Below are positions 23,426 to 27,247 of a stretch of DNA of 64,000 nucleotides, piece after piece. Position numbers and translations under genes: made by a program. The notes under the pieces were generated by a model, which worked only from the letters and a program-made list of their open reading frames with translations, was not told where the DNA came from and searched no databases. Each line of letters starts with the position of its first letter. Position 1 is the stretch's first letter. Source of the DNA: Stigmatella aurantiaca DW4/3-1 (lineage in GTDB: Bacteria > Myxococcota > Myxococcia > Myxococcales > Myxococcaceae); contig NC_014623.1 in NCBI RefSeq assembly GCF_000165485.1, forward strand, positions 7,830,893 through 7,894,892, written 5' to 3'.

Positions 23426-24324
23426 ACCCGAAGGAAGCGCCCCACCGCGATGAAGCTGCCCACCAGCCCGAGTCCGCCGCCCGCCGCCACCAGCTCCAGC
23501 GCCAGCCCCGGCCGCACCAGGGGCTCGCCCGAAGAGGGCCCCAGCACGAAGGAAAATAGGGACGCCAGCGAGGGGCCCACCAGTTGGCCAAACAGCCACA
23601 GCCCCGCGAGCGCCACCCCCGCGCCCAGCAGCCCCTGGAGGAGCCCTTCGATGAGGAAGGGCGCCTTGACGAAACGGTCCGTAGCCCCCACCAGCTTCTG
23701 GATTTCAATCTCCTCTCGCCGCGCGTAGATGGCGAGTTGGAGCGTGGCGGACACGATGATGATGGTGGCGAAGAGCACCACCGCGAAGGCCACCACCCCG
23801 CCATACCGCAGTGCCCGGGCGATGGCCGTCAGCCGCTCCACCGCCTCTTGGCCATAGTCCACGCCGGTCACGCCCGGCAGCGTGCGCACCTGCTGGGCCA
23901 GTGCCTCCAGCCCCTCGGGGGTCCGCCGCTCGGGGGCCACCGCCAGCTCCAGGGAAGGAGGCAGCGGGTTCTCGGGCAGCTGCGCGAGCGCCTCTCCCAG
24001 GTCTCCCAGCTCTCGCGCCAACCGGCCCAGGGCCTCGTCCGGATTCACCAGCACGGCGCGGCCGCCACTGGCGGTTTCCAGTTGCCCGCGCATGGCCTCC
24101 ACCTGCTCCGGGGACAGCTCCGGCGCCAGGTACACCGTCACCTCGACCTCTCCCCCCAGCGAGGCGAGCAGCCCATCCAGGGCGTGCCCCGCGGTGCGGG
24201 TCAGCCCCGCGGCGAACAGCGCGATGGCGATGGTGGTGATGGCGATGAAGTGGACGAACGGAGAGTGCTTCAGCCCTCCGGCCGCCGAGCGCCAGAAATA
24301 GGAGACCTTGGACAGCGTGGTCAT
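23422..24324 (-). CDS. ftsX: Cell-division ABC-transporter-like membrane protein FtsX
   Basis: 300 aa with four membrane helices: one near residues 25-45, then a periplasmic domain of about 120 residues (EVTVYLAPELSPEQVEAMRGQ..., GVTGVDYGQEAVERL), then three C-terminal helices (VVAFAVVLFATIIIVSATLQ and following). FtsX with FtsE transmits ATP hydrolysis to EnvC-type coiled coils in the periplasm. RREEIEIQKLVGAT is the conserved cytoplasmic loop of FtsX. It overlaps ftsE upstream by ATGA and envC downstream by ATGA, so the three are translationally coupled. Confidence 0.96.
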   Translation of the reverse strand: MTTLSKVSYFWRSAAGGLKHSPFVHFIAITTIAIALFAAGLTRTAGHALDGLLASLGGEVEVTVYLAPELSPEQVEAMRGQLETASGGRAVLVNPDEALGRLARELGDLGEALAQLPENPLPPSLELAVAPERRTPEGLEALAQQVRTLPGVTGVDYGQEAVERLTAIARALRYGGVVAFAVVLFATIIIVSATLQLAIYARREEIEIQKLVGATDRFVKAPFLIEGLLQGLLGAGVALAGLWLFGQLVGPSLASLFSFVLGPSSGEPLVRPGLALELVAAGGGLGLVGSFIAVGRFLRV

Positions 24325-25016
24325 ACCGCCGCCATCCTCCGGGCCGCCTTGACGCCGTCCTCGTCCGACACGATGAACCCACGCTCCAGCCGCACCGTGC
24401 GCTTCTGGTAGCGCGCCAAGAGCGTGCTGTCGTGCGTGGCCACCATGACGGTGGTGCCGCGGATGTTCACCTGGTTGAGCAGGTCCATGATCTCCACGGT
24501 GAGCGCCGGATCCAGGTTGCCGGTGGGCTCATCGGCCAGGAGGATGGTGGGATCATTGACCAGCGCGCGCGCGATGACCACGCGCTGCTGCTCTCCACCG
24601 GACAGGCGCAGCGGGTACGAGCGGGCCTTGTGCTCGAGCCCCACCAGTTTGAGCATGCGGTGGACCTTCTCGCGCGCCTCGTCCCGGGGCACGCCCAGCA
24701 CATCCAGGGTGAAGGCGACGTTGTCCTCCACCGTGCGGTGGGGCAGCAGCTTGAAGTCCTGGAACACCACGCCGATGTTGCGCCGCAGGTAGGGCACGGC
24801 CGACTCGCGGATGCGCGCGATGTTCCGCCCCCCCACGAGGATCTGCCCCTTCGTTGCCTTCTCCGCGCAGAACAGCAGCTTCAGCAACGTGGTCTTCCCC
24901 GCGCCCGAGGGGCCCGTCAGGAAGATGAACTCCCCCTTCTCGACGTGCAGGTTGACGTCCGAGAGCACGGGGGGATCCCCCGGGTAGGCTTTGTACACGT
25001 GGAAAATCTGGATCAT
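24321..25016 (-). CDS. ftsE: Cell-division ATP-binding protein FtsE
   Basis: 231 aa from the ATG at 25016 (MIQIFHVYKAYPG), the standard FtsE start; the frame is open to 25061. Walker A GPSGAGKTTLL, the FtsE-type Q-loop VFQDFKLLPHRTVEDN, signature LSGGEQQRV, Walker B ILLADEPTGNLD and switch VATHD are all intact. It forms the cytosolic ATPase of FtsEX that gates septal peptidoglycan hydrolysis. It begins 96 bp after the stop of the PYP-like gene on the same strand. Confidence 0.97.
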   Translation of the reverse strand: MIQIFHVYKAYPGDPPVLSDVNLHVEKGEFIFLTGPSGAGKTTLLKLLFCAEKATKGQILVGGRNIARIRESAVPYLRRNIGVVFQDFKLLPHRTVEDNVAFTLDVLGVPRDEAREKVHRMLKLVGLEHKARSYPLRLSGGEQQRVVIARALVNDPTILLADEPTGNLDPALTVEIMDLLNQVNIRGTTVMVATHDSTLLARYQKRTVRLERGFIVSDEDGVKAARRMAAV

Positions 25017-25112
25017 CGGCCAGCGGATTGTGGACCCAACCGGCCTCTGGCTCCACTCCACGGCGCTCCCCTGCCTGCCTCCAGGGCGTGCGCCCCAGGG
25101 AAGGGGGCCCGC

Positions 25113-25520
25113 TCAGCCCTCGCCGAGGGGGATCAGCGCCGTCAGCACCGCCGTCACGAAGACCCAGCGGGAACCGTCCCCCAGCACCATCAGCCGGATG
25201 CGCACGTTGCGTGTGCCCCAGCGGAATCGGAACTGGAAGTCGAAGCTCTCCGTGCCATGCCCTCGCTCGACGAGCGTGTCGAAACGCCCCCGGAAGCTGG
25301 CCACGTTGGTACAAGGGGCAACCTCCTCGAAGAAGCGGCGGCCGAGCACGGACACGGGCTTGCGCCGGGAGAACGCGGACTCCGCCGCGTTGTAGATGAG
25401 CACCCGTCCCTCCGCGTCCAGCTTGATGGCGCCAAACGGCAACGCATCAAACTCCTCGGGCGACAGCTGGCCCAGCCGATCCTCTGTCAGCGACTCCGCT
25501 TCCAGAATCCCATGCCGCAT
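25113..25520 (-). CDS. pyp: Photoactive yellow protein homologue (PAS photoreceptor)
   Basis: 135-aa single PAS domain with strong resemblance to Halorhodospira photoactive yellow protein: LPFGAIKLDAEGRVLIYNAAE, FFEEVAPCTNVASFRGRF and WVFVTAV align with PYP almost without gaps. Y43, E47 and C70 correspond to PYP Tyr42, Glu46 and the chromophore-bearing Cys69, and R53 to Arg52; Thr50 is Ser51 here. PYP binds p-coumaric acid through the Cys and photocycles under blue light. No tyrosine ammonia-lyase or coumaroyl-CoA ligase gene is in this window, so chromophore supply is open. Start ATG at 25520 with AGGGGGGA 8 nt upstream. ftsE follows downstream; an unknown gene and divergent carF lie upstream. 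Confidence 0.88.
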   Translation of the reverse strand: MRHGILEAESLTEDRLGQLSPEEFDALPFGAIKLDAEGRVLIYNAAESAFSRRKPVSVLGRRFFEEVAPCTNVASFRGRFDTLVERGHGTESFDFQFRFRWGTRNVRIRLMVLGDGSRWVFVTAVLTALIPLGEG

Positions 25521-25535
25521 GTGACAATCCCCCCT

Positions 25536-25564
25536 GGCCGTCCGCCCCTACAGGGGGAACGGCC
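25536..25564 (-). promoter_or_regulatory. Hairpin in the leader of the PYP gene
   Basis: GGCCGT and ACGGCC (25536-25541 / 25559-25564) with an inner CCCCT/AGGGG stem form a GC-rich hairpin about 15 nt before the pyp start codon, directly next to the AGGGGGGA ribosome site. It may end the upstream transcript or control pyp translation. No T-run follows. Confidence 0.4.
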
Positions 25565-25627
25565 TGCCAGGCAGTGTACAGGGAGTGTTCTGACCTTGTC
25601 ACAGCCCCTGCACAGGGGGGCACGGGC

Positions 25628-26185
25628 CTACGGAGGATCGCCCTCGCCCGCCAGATAGCTGAGGATGACCTCGTCGAGGCTCTTCTCGGAAATCAAATCC
25701 TCGCCAAAGAGGGTCTCCACACCCACCTCGTTGATCTTCGGCTGGATCTTCATGGCGCGGGCCGCCGCCACTTCGGGCGGCATGTGCACCGCAGCGGGTG
25801 CGGCCGGCGGAAGCGGCTTGACGGCCGGCGCCACCTGGGCAGGGGCCTTCACCAGGGGTGGGTCGATATCGGAGGCAAGCTGCCCGGGCTGGTAGTGGCG
25901 TGCGCCCGCCTCGTAGCTGTCGTAAACCCCGTTGATGAGGTTGCGCAGCATCTCCTTGTGCTGCTCCTCCATCAGCTCCCGCACGACTTCGGCGAGATTC
26001 TCGGCGTTGAGGATGTCGGCGTAGGAGGTCTTCTTCGAGGCGAGGATGTTCCCACCCACGAACAGGTGGGTGATGATGTGGGGGTTGTTCACGCCCGAAT
26101 CCTCGGTCTGGACGTGGTAAACCTTCCCCTTGTGCTTGATGTTGTGGTTGAAGCCGGTGACGGCTTTCTCGAAGGTTTTCGACAT
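25628..26185 (-). CDS. Conserved hypothetical protein
   Basis: 185 aa from the ATG at 26185 (MSKTFEKAVTGFNHNIKHKG). The first 100 residues are well ordered, with GFNHNIKHKGKVYHVQTEDSG and HIITHLFVGGNILASKKTSYA, a pattern I recall in uncharacterised proteins of Myxococcota and other delta-proteobacterial lineages. A Pro/Ala linker and a short C-terminal segment (KIQPKINEVGVETLFGEDLI) follow. No catalytic motif is recognisable. It is divergent from carF and lies upstream of pyp on the same strand, about 107 bp away. Confidence 0.75.
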   Translation of the reverse strand: MSKTFEKAVTGFNHNIKHKGKVYHVQTEDSGVNNPHIITHLFVGGNILASKKTSYADILNAENLAEVVRELMEEQHKEMLRNLINGVYDSYEAGARHYQPGQLASDIDPPLVKAPAQVAPAVKPLPPAAPAAVHMPPEVAAARAMKIQPKINEVGVETLFGEDLISEKSLDEVILSYLAGEGDPP

Positions 26186-26199
26186 GCCGAAGGCGCCGG

Positions 26200-26228
26200 A
26201 AGCTAGCAGCGCCCCCCGGGGGAGACAA
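26200..26228 (-). promoter_or_regulatory. Candidate sigma-70-like promoter for the gene at 26185
   Basis: On the minus strand TTGTCT (26223-26228) and TAGCTT (26200-26205) are separated by 17 bp. The predicted transcript start would be close to the ATG at 26185, leaving almost no leader; the gene also lacks a clear ribosome site. Confidence 0.4.
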
Positions 26229-26269
26229 GTTAGCGTCACACAGTTCGTGCGCATTGCGCCCCGGCCGGA

Positions 26270-26302
26270 CGAATTTCCCATCCCCTGGGACGATGGGATT
26301 CG
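26270..26302. promoter_or_regulatory. Long inverted repeat upstream of carF
   Basis: CGAATTTCCCAT (26270-26281) and ATGGGATTCG (26293-26302) pair over 10 bp with a 2-nt bulge; the centre carries a further TCCC-CT-GGGA dyad. It lies between the two divergent candidate promoters, so it cannot be a terminator for either gene and is a plausible operator. Confidence 0.5.
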
Positions 26303-26339
26303 TGCCTGCCCAGGGTGCGTCCAAGCCCAGTGCTCATTC

Positions 26340-26369
26340 TTGAAAACCCGAGCACGCCTAGGCTACGTA
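26340..26369 (+). promoter_or_regulatory. Candidate sigma-70-like promoter for carF
   Basis: TTGAAA (26340-26345) and TACGTA (26364-26369) are separated by 18 bp, about 50 bp upstream of the carF ATG. This is an unusually AT-rich stretch for the region. Confidence 0.4.
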
Positions 26370-26422
26370 CGTCATGCTGTGAACATCCGTGCCCCCCTGC
26401 GACGGCCTCTACCAGGTGTCCG

Positions 26423-27247
26423 ATGAAGAACAACCCCACGAACCCGCTGCGACAGCAGGATGCCCAGGTCTTGGCCCAGGGCTACTCCCGGGCCATCCGC
26501 CTGATGGACATCGGCAGCATCGTCATCTTCGTGTCCCTGGAGCTGGCGCTGGCATACATGCTGTGGGGCAACTCCCATGTAGGCCCATGGCTGCTGCTGA
26601 CCGCGATCATCCTGGGGTACCTGGCGGCGGACTTCGTCTCGGGCTTCGTGCACTGGATGGCGGACACCTGGGGCTCCAGCACCATGCCCGTGCTGGGCAA
26701 GGCCTTCGTGCGGCCCTTCCGCGAGCACCACGTGGACCAGAAGGCCATCACCCGTCACGACTTCATCGAGACGAACGGCAACAACTGCGCCATCTCCATC
26801 CCCGTGGGCATCGCCACGCTGGTGATGCCGCACAGCAGCCCCACCTGGGTGTTCCTGGCGGCGTTTCTGGGGTCGATGATCTTCTGGGTGATGGCGACCA
26901 ACCAGTTCCACAAGTGGTCGCACCAGGATGAGGCAGGCCCGCTCGTGGGATTCCTGCAGCGCGTGCACCTCATCCTGCCGCCCGACCACCACCGCATCCA
27001 CCACACGGCGCCCTTCAACAAGTACTACTGCATCACCGTGGGCTGGCTGAACAAGCCGCTGTCGATGATCGCCTTCTTTCCCACGATGGAGCGAATCGTC
27101 ACCTGGGCCACCGGCATGCTCCCCCGCCAGGACGACATCGGCACGGAGGCGGCGAAGGCCGTGCTGCAAACCTCGGAGGAGAATGTCCTCATGGTTCAGG
27201 CCGCCAAGGTCCTGCTGGAGGGCACCGAGGAGCCGAAGTCGATCTGA
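26423..27247 (+). CDS. carF: CarF-type plasmanylethanolamine desaturase
   Basis: 274 aa from the ATG at 26423 with AGGTG upstream. It has the CarF/TMEM189 lipid-desaturase layout: membrane helices, then FVHWMADTWGS, RPFREHHVDQ (HH 102-103), TRHDFIETNGNNC (H112), NQFHKWSHQ (H163, H167) and PPDHHRIHHTAPFNKYYCI (H189-H194), a histidine-rich di-iron site. In Myxococcus xanthus CarF introduces the vinyl-ether double bond that makes plasmalogens, and is needed for the blue-light/singlet-oxygen carotenoid response. Length is close to M. xanthus CarF. It converges on murI with a 15-bp gap. The nearby PYP homologue adds to the light-related context. Confidence 0.94.
   Translation: MKNNPTNPLRQQDAQVLAQGYSRAIRLMDIGSIVIFVSLELALAYMLWGNSHVGPWLLLTAIILGYLAADFVSGFVHWMADTWGSSTMPVLGKAFVRPFREHHVDQKAITRHDFIETNGNNCAISIPVGIATLVMPHSSPTWVFLAAFLGSMIFWVMATNQFHKWSHQDEAGPLVGFLQRVHLILPPDHHRIHHTAPFNKYYCITVGWLNKPLSMIAFFPTMERIVTWATGMLPRQDDIGTEAAKAVLQTSEENVLMVQAAKVLLEGTEEPKSI

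Follow-up and report, generated by a model that had tools for sequence, protein, structure and literature searches.

A photoactive yellow protein gene next to romY in Stigmatella aurantiaca DW4/3-1, in a genome with two such genes and no recognisable tyrosine ammonia-lyase

The window analysed here is a stretch of 64,000 nucleotides from the genome of Stigmatella aurantiaca DW4/3-1, which consists of one contig of 10,260,756 bases. It contains a gene, hereafter pyp, whose product is a genuine photoactive yellow protein (PYP) by every sequence test applied except the strict cut-off of the TIGR02373 profile, and which quite probably serves as a single-domain, PYP-type blue-light photoreceptor. 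Since a Stigmatella PYP with a proposed receptor role (PMC6126659) and the Myxococcota as the proposed likely origin of the PYP family (PMC9664959) are in print, the finding as such is already known. What the present analysis adds is the presence of two PYPs in the genome, a subgroup of PYPs with Trp at position 100, the linkage to romY and the lack of a recognisable tyrosine ammonia-lyase (TAL). In the passages of the literature that were searched, we found none of these four points stated.

Gene model, chromophore pocket and predicted fold

The reading frame proposed in the original prediction was recovered exactly, with 135 codons, and it lies on the minus strand, which had been left unstated (Table 1). 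The plus strand of the locus is also open, in frame 1; the minus strand was chosen because both homology and the codon-position GC gene call favour it. Pairwise comparison of the genes from four congeneric genomes (six pairs) gave dN/dS values of 0.20-0.33, and pyp is under purifying selection.

Table 1. Features of the pyp locus (positions in the window)
Feature	Position	Strand	Basis or remark
pyp, 135-aa photoactive yellow protein	25113..25520	-	ATG at 25520, TGA at 25115-25113
Codon of Cys70 (= Cys69, p-coumarate thioester site in known PYPs)	25311..25313	-	alignment
Codon of Tyr43 (= Tyr42)	25392..25394	-	alignment
Codon of Glu47 (= Glu46, proton donor in known PYPs)	25380..25382	-	alignment
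Codon of Trp101 (= Met100 position)	25218..25220	-	Trp in 9/9 subgroup members
romY (co-GAP of the MglA polarity switch in M. xanthus)	25628..26281	-	NF053858, 134.7 bits (cut-off 50); true start near 26185 by eye
ftsE, downstream neighbour of pyp	24321..25016	-	TIGR02673, 302 bits (cut-off 264.85)
carF (plasmanylethanolamine desaturase), divergent from romY	26315..27247	+	NF045946, 531 bits (cut-off 500)
Promoter-like GTGACA-18-TACACT between romY and pyp	25573..25602	-	predicted, consensus match; kept in 4/4 congeneric genomes including the window's

In a profile search, TIGR02373 (photoactive yellow protein) matched the protein with an E-value of 1.7e-29 and 102.4 bits, below the curated cut-off of 143.05 bits. 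We did not take this cut-off as family-defining, because the best match falls short of it in each of the 195 Myxococcota genomes searched (0/195 reach it) and because the profile reportedly recovers about 20% of the homologues of PYP (PMC9664959). The low score, together with a Pfam assignment to PAS and PAS_4, both general families, could be read as a generic PAS domain that carries a cysteine by chance. However, known PYPs mostly fall into the same two Pfam families (PMC9664959), and the profile E-value, the structures, the pocket and the tree all point to a PYP. Specifically, a phmmer search of the PDB returned as best match the PYP domain of Ppr (1mzu, 2.1e-22), followed by the Halorhodospira halophila PYP, and all 33 distinct PDB sequences at E<=1 are PYPs, Ppr PYP domains or FAST/nanoFAST tags derived from PYP.

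The intact pocket and the residue correspondences put forward originally were borne out by the alignment. Cys70, Tyr43 and Glu47 align with Cys69, Tyr42 and Glu46 of H. halophila PYP, the stretch that connects them being free of gaps; one short gap falls near the C-terminal hairpin. All nine residues of the published PYP pocket list (PMC12826048) are kept; Ile31, Phe62, Val66, Ala67, Pro68 and Phe96 are all identical (row L006). Among the 30 positions tabulated (after the removal of 12 loci as duplicates), identity to H. halophila extends, in its numbering, to positions 26, 28, 29, 31, 42, 43, 46, 52, 59, 62, 63, 66-70, 75, 79, 92, 96, 105 and 119. The alignment reference was the mutant chain 1gsv, with which the window PYP shares Ser at position 47.

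An AlphaFold model, computed from a 40-row alignment, reached a pLDDT of 86.3 and a pTM of 0.80. When this predicted model was submitted to Foldseek, PDB ranks 1-40 were all PYP or FAST/nanoFAST, the first non-PYP structure appearing at 8.3e-7; superposition on H. halophila PYP (2phy) gave an rmsd of 1.5 Å over 114 columns and TM scores of 0.78/0.84. The predicted fold is that of a PYP. A phylogeny, suggested at the outset as a check, likewise placed the gene with the PYPs and away from generic PAS domains: 61 PYP rows split from six generic PAS domains that the window's genome also encodes with a support of 96, and the window PYP falls into a nine-row clade with a support of 99. This tree (67 rows, 113 columns, quick method, rows of fewer than 85 residues excluded) has few columns for its rows and very long outgroup branches, and the deep branching order among the PYP clades is poorly supported in it. 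On the basis of the TIGR02373 E-value, the PDB matches, the pocket, the tree and the Foldseek result, the reading as a generic PAS domain was rejected; we regard its probability as negligible.

Two known proteins are instructive for comparison. The PYP domain of Ppr from Rhodospirillum centenum (1mzu; Q9X2W8) has Ser50, Phe94, Phe98 and the full pocket in common with the window PYP; however, it is part of a PYP-phytochrome-kinase protein and has Met100, whereas the window PYP is stand-alone and has Trp at this position. The H. halophila PYP (P16113; 2phy) resembles the window PYP in being a single domain of similar length with Cys69, Tyr42, Glu46 and Arg52. The window PYP differs from it at positions 49 (Phe for Ile), 50 (Ser for Thr), 94 and 98 (Phe for Tyr in both), 97 (Arg for Asp), 100 (Trp for Met) and 102 (Thr) and, unlike it, lacks an adjoining TAL/ligase operon.

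By analogy with the family, Cys70 would carry a p-coumaroyl thioester held by Tyr43 and Glu47. Blue light would isomerise this chromophore, Glu47 would donate a proton to it, and the protein would partly unfold, its bleached state signalling to a partner protein in trans. The serine noted at position 50 is present (Ser51 of the window PYP). The absorbance would lie nearer 430-440 nm than the 440-450 nm foreseen originally, because the two known Ser50 PYPs absorb at 432-434 nm (PMC12826048). The Met100-to-Trp change, absent from the original prediction, may have the greater influence on kinetics; Met100 has been proposed to catalyse reisomerisation (PMC9664959), and recovery takes about 50 s in the R. 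centenum PYP and about 1 h in the S. ruber PYP (PMC12826048). Judged from these residues, the window PYP would be blue-shifted and, owing to Trp at position 100, slow to recover. Precedents for this forecast are few: Ppr-PYP is slow despite its Met100, and the subgroup of the window PYP is itself mixed at position 50 (Ser in 5/9, Ala in 4/9) and at position 42 (Tyr in 7/9, Phe in 2/9).

Distribution in the Myxococcota and a second PYP

PYPs had been described as rare and scattered. This does not hold well for the Myxococcota, where 41 of the 195 genomes contain a match of at least 48 bits; 75 match at E<=0.001, the other 34 of these only below 37 bits. The subgroup to which the window PYP belongs has nine members, all myxobacterial and all with Trp100. 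In the wider set of 60 PYP rows (59 myxobacterial and one from Belnapia), Glu46 is present in every row and Cys69 in 59, the sole exception (L070) being a partial match at a contig end.

The genome encodes a second full PYP at C1:4013988-4014335 (L007:1507-1851), which scores 97.9 bits, the next match having 18 bits. It is about 42% identical to the window PYP and keeps Glu46 and Cys69, with Phe42, Ala50 and His100 at the other positions. It belongs to another, wider myxobacterial clade, in which 25 of the 27 members have His100 and 25 have Phe42. A 2024 paper (PMC11832031) describes S. aurantiaca with a single PYP, whereas the window's genome has two; in a survey, 16% of the analysed genomes had more than one PYP (PMC12826048). 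Four PYP-like matches of 63-115 bits (L015, L043, L067, L068) were observed in a genome of the same order (G028). Next to the second PYP gene lie genes for a 4HBT thioesterase and a deoxynucleoside kinase, and the same layout recurs elsewhere in its clade; a thioesterase adjoining the gene for a thioester-bearing photoreceptor may merit attention.

Chromophore supply

The statement that the window holds neither a TAL nor a ligase gene proved correct: it contains no PF00221 match (E<=1e-3, two in the genome) and no PF00501 match (E<=1e-20, 68 in the genome). The accompanying suggestion that a TAL might lie elsewhere found no support, in that neither of the two PF00221 proteins (E<=1e-3) of this one-contig genome is TAL-like. 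The first is HutH, scoring above both HutH cut-offs and carrying Ser-His at the selectivity site. The second is closest to the ergothionase 6s7j (303 bits; L073:8396-10060) and has Glu-Ala-Asp where the MIO-forming Ala-Ser-Gly triad is expected. By eye, this ergothionase-like protein starts with a signal peptide, and copies 97-98% identical to it occur in G095 and G097.

Lyase selectivity was read according to the His89 rule (PMC8773403, PMC9002059). Because a true Streptomyces TAL has Tyr, not His, at the selectivity site (PMC8773403), lyases with Tyr-His, Phe-His or Tyr-Leu were counted as TAL candidates too; none of these is present among the two PF00221 proteins of the window's genome. The lyases of the 41 PYP-bearing Myxococcota genomes were classified in the same way by their selectivity-site residues, with frames set by tblastn; four pieces without the site (L226, L228, L229, L230) were left unclassified, and L173 is a broken Ser-His piece. 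Where the best lyase copy is full-length, it is Ser-His in all cases (38/38); the remaining three genomes have a Ser-His copy in pieces (G153), a fragment (G026) and nothing (G169, 59% complete). Further copies are of the His-Leu type in five genomes (G060, G073, G074, G100, G110), Tyr-His in 17, Phe-His in one and Tyr-Leu in one (G153). For one Tyr-His lyase and for the Phe-His lyase, the best model in a scan was the BagA/FevW TAL, with scores far below its cut-off. In total, a TAL-type or at least non-HutH-type candidate is found in 24 of the 41 genomes, and none is visible in 17. The congeneric genomes G000, G095, G096 and G097, which carry a PYP of the window type, are all among these 17. 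HutH copies (Ser-His) are present in G095, G096 and G097, together with a second Ser-His lyase in G095, an Ala-His lyase in G096 and G097, and the triad-less ergothionase-like protein in G095 and G097.

The 68 AMP-binding (PF00501) matches of the genome lie in many cases in long NRPS-like frames. Among five stand-alone AMP-binding proteins that were scanned, the best model was a fatty-acid/acyl-CoA ligase for four and malonyl-CoA synthase for one, and only L200 scored above a cut-off. No match at E<=1e-25 to a compact ligase of other myxobacteria was found in the genome, 8 of the 94 candidates having been scored. In G060, G073, G074 and G110 this compact AMP-binding ligase (L183, L184, L185, L186) adjoins the gene of the His-Leu lyase. 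The best PDB match of one such lyase (L166, from G074) is 2o6y, named 'putative histidine ammonia-lyase' by its depositors, which we take to be the TAL of R. sphaeroides. The compact ligase occurs in 7/195 Myxococcota genomes, four with and three without a PYP (Fisher P 0.037, relatedness ignored), and the lyase/ligase neighbourhood in G074 contains a glycosyltransferase/acyltransferase gene and, by eye, a ketosynthase piece. With three PYP-less genomes and such neighbours in G074, the lyase and the ligase may serve a pigment pathway, and the idea of a dedicated PYP chromophore operon in these relatives was not upheld.

The absence of a TAL-like lyase, which extends to G095, G096 and G097 in that no His-Leu or Tyr/Phe-His lyase occurs in these congeners, would be accounted for if the window protein were a PYP-fold sensor that works without p-coumarate, by binding some other ligand, by switching through the thiol of Cys70 or as a constitutive binding partner; neofunctionalised PYPs have been proposed elsewhere (PMC9664959). 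We consider this unlikely. Glu46, which a chromophore needs but a thiol switch would not, is retained within a full pocket in 60/60 rows, and pyp is under selection. Moreover, surveys find TAL near few PYPs, namely in 5% of predicted pyp operons (PMC12826048) and, for at least 10% of functional PYPs, no more than five genes away (PMC9664959), and the 24 genomes with a candidate lyase include one in which it lies close to pyp. The surveys suggest a TAL elsewhere in the genome, other lyases or p-coumarate uptake (PMC12826048, PMC9664959). For a p-coumarate-binding photoreceptor in S. aurantiaca, our guess is that p-coumarate would most likely come from outside (plant debris) or from a side activity of HutH, and that one of the many acyl-CoA ligases of the genome would activate it. 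If fruiting in blue light proved to need p-coumarate from outside, the bacterium would be taking a compound made by plants as a vitamin-like cofactor of its light sensor.

The genome with a lyase close to pyp is G153, which belongs to the same family. Here 1.4 kb separates the pyp gene (L225:3368-3739, 102 bits) from a divergently oriented lyase gene (L225:205-1971), whose product keeps the Ala-Ser-Gly triad intact and has Tyr-Leu as its selectivity-site residues. A gene with an MCP signalling domain lies between the two, and genes for a hybrid kinase, a receiver, a CheA-like protein and CheW follow beyond (L225, G153:C487, 205-13632). A lyase and a chemosensory system can therefore both be linked to PYPs in myxobacteria, and this cluster is possibly a self-contained photo-chemosensory unit. 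The window PYP, in contrast, has neither.

Gene neighbourhood and possible output

S. aurantiaca forms fruiting bodies under light of 450 nm and 750 nm, but not at 700 nm or in the dark, and its PYP gene has been proposed as a possible receptor for fruiting at 450 nm (PMC6126659). The Stigmatella entry mentioned in the original prediction is thus in print (PMC6126659, IUCrJ 2018; PMC11832031), and PYP genes are reported there for Stigmatella aurantiaca and 'C. apiculatus'. No locus is named in the passages cited, and the published S. aurantiaca PYP is probably either the window pyp or its paralogue. We suggest that the output of the window PYP would be one arm of blue-light-stimulated fruiting, shared or divided with the second PYP. 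In a genome without a recognisable TAL, the fruiting response to blue light may require an external supply of p-coumarate. The window pyp is an ordinary member of a well-surveyed family; its value is that a long-standing question of physiology can now be put to the test.

The gene order around pyp is murI, carF (divergent), romY, pyp, ftsE, ftsX, envC-like and ctpA-like (murI, envC and ctpA by eye). No kinase, GGDEF or MCP gene, the usual neighbours of PYP genes, was found among the direct pyp neighbours scanned. This lack of a usual signalling neighbour counts against the photoreceptor reading, as do the missing TAL-like enzyme and the score below the TIGR02373 cut-off. In eight of the nine subgroup genomes, representing three genus codes, pyp lies directly downstream of romY at a distance of 110-281 bp; in G115, romY is only a 47-aa piece at a contig end. 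In four of these eight genomes, 1.6-2 kb of other genes separate pyp from ftsE, with nothing inserted between romY and pyp.

This conserved pairing suggests that the PYP might act on RomY, which in M. xanthus is required for the GAP activity of MglB and for correct reversals. Light would then feed into the RomY/MglB/MglA polarity switch and blue light would change the reversal frequency; we rate this reading as very unlikely. The romY-ftsE site was viewed in 38 family genomes out of 96, namely those with the 30 top-scoring romY loci and eight selected by hand, two of these for their pyp: pyp is present in eight, romY and ftsE are adjacent without pyp in 24, 1.6-1.8 kb of other DNA intervenes in two, and ftsE falls outside the stretch in four. 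Since those 24 genomes have the two genes adjacent without pyp, the place of pyp after romY may be a single inherited insertion. The ninth subgroup member (G110) carries its pyp elsewhere, romY itself is present in 88/96 family genomes, most of them without a window-type PYP, and pyp has a promoter-like element of its own.

This element, a consensus match, lies between romY and pyp in the four congeneric genomes in the form GTGACA-18-TACA(C/A)T. One such promoter-like site was observed in a region of 1.6 kb against 0.2 expected. Similar sites (9-10 of 12) precede pyp in G115, G073 and G074, with a spacer of 19 in the latter two; none was seen before pyp in G138 and G110. As to co-transcription of pyp with romY, no terminator-like site was detected in 24900-26500, whereas the conserved promoter-like element lies between the two genes.

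We found no open-access paper that pairs RomY with a photoactive yellow protein. A combined picture, in which slow Trp100 PYPs of fruiting myxobacteria, which in Stigmatella would obtain their p-coumarate from rotting plants and not from a TAL, feed light into the RomY-MglB-MglA switch and so couple light (and plant material) to motility and fruiting, is offered as a long shot.

The gap between romY and ftsE appears to be a repeated insertion place, given the 1.6-1.8 kb without pyp in G119 and G126 (L180, L176) and the inserts after pyp in L003, L004, L047 and L053. By eye, the pyp-ftsE insert holds an opposite-strand membrane transporter gene in P. fallax (L004) and L047, and genes for a dehydrogenase and a LysR-type regulator in Citreicoccus (L003). 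As these genes differ, a conserved signalling partner between pyp and ftsE was dismissed. On the other side of romY, and one gene from pyp, carF encodes the plasmalogen desaturase of the myxobacterial light response; the order carF-romY is found in many genomes of the family, with or without pyp.
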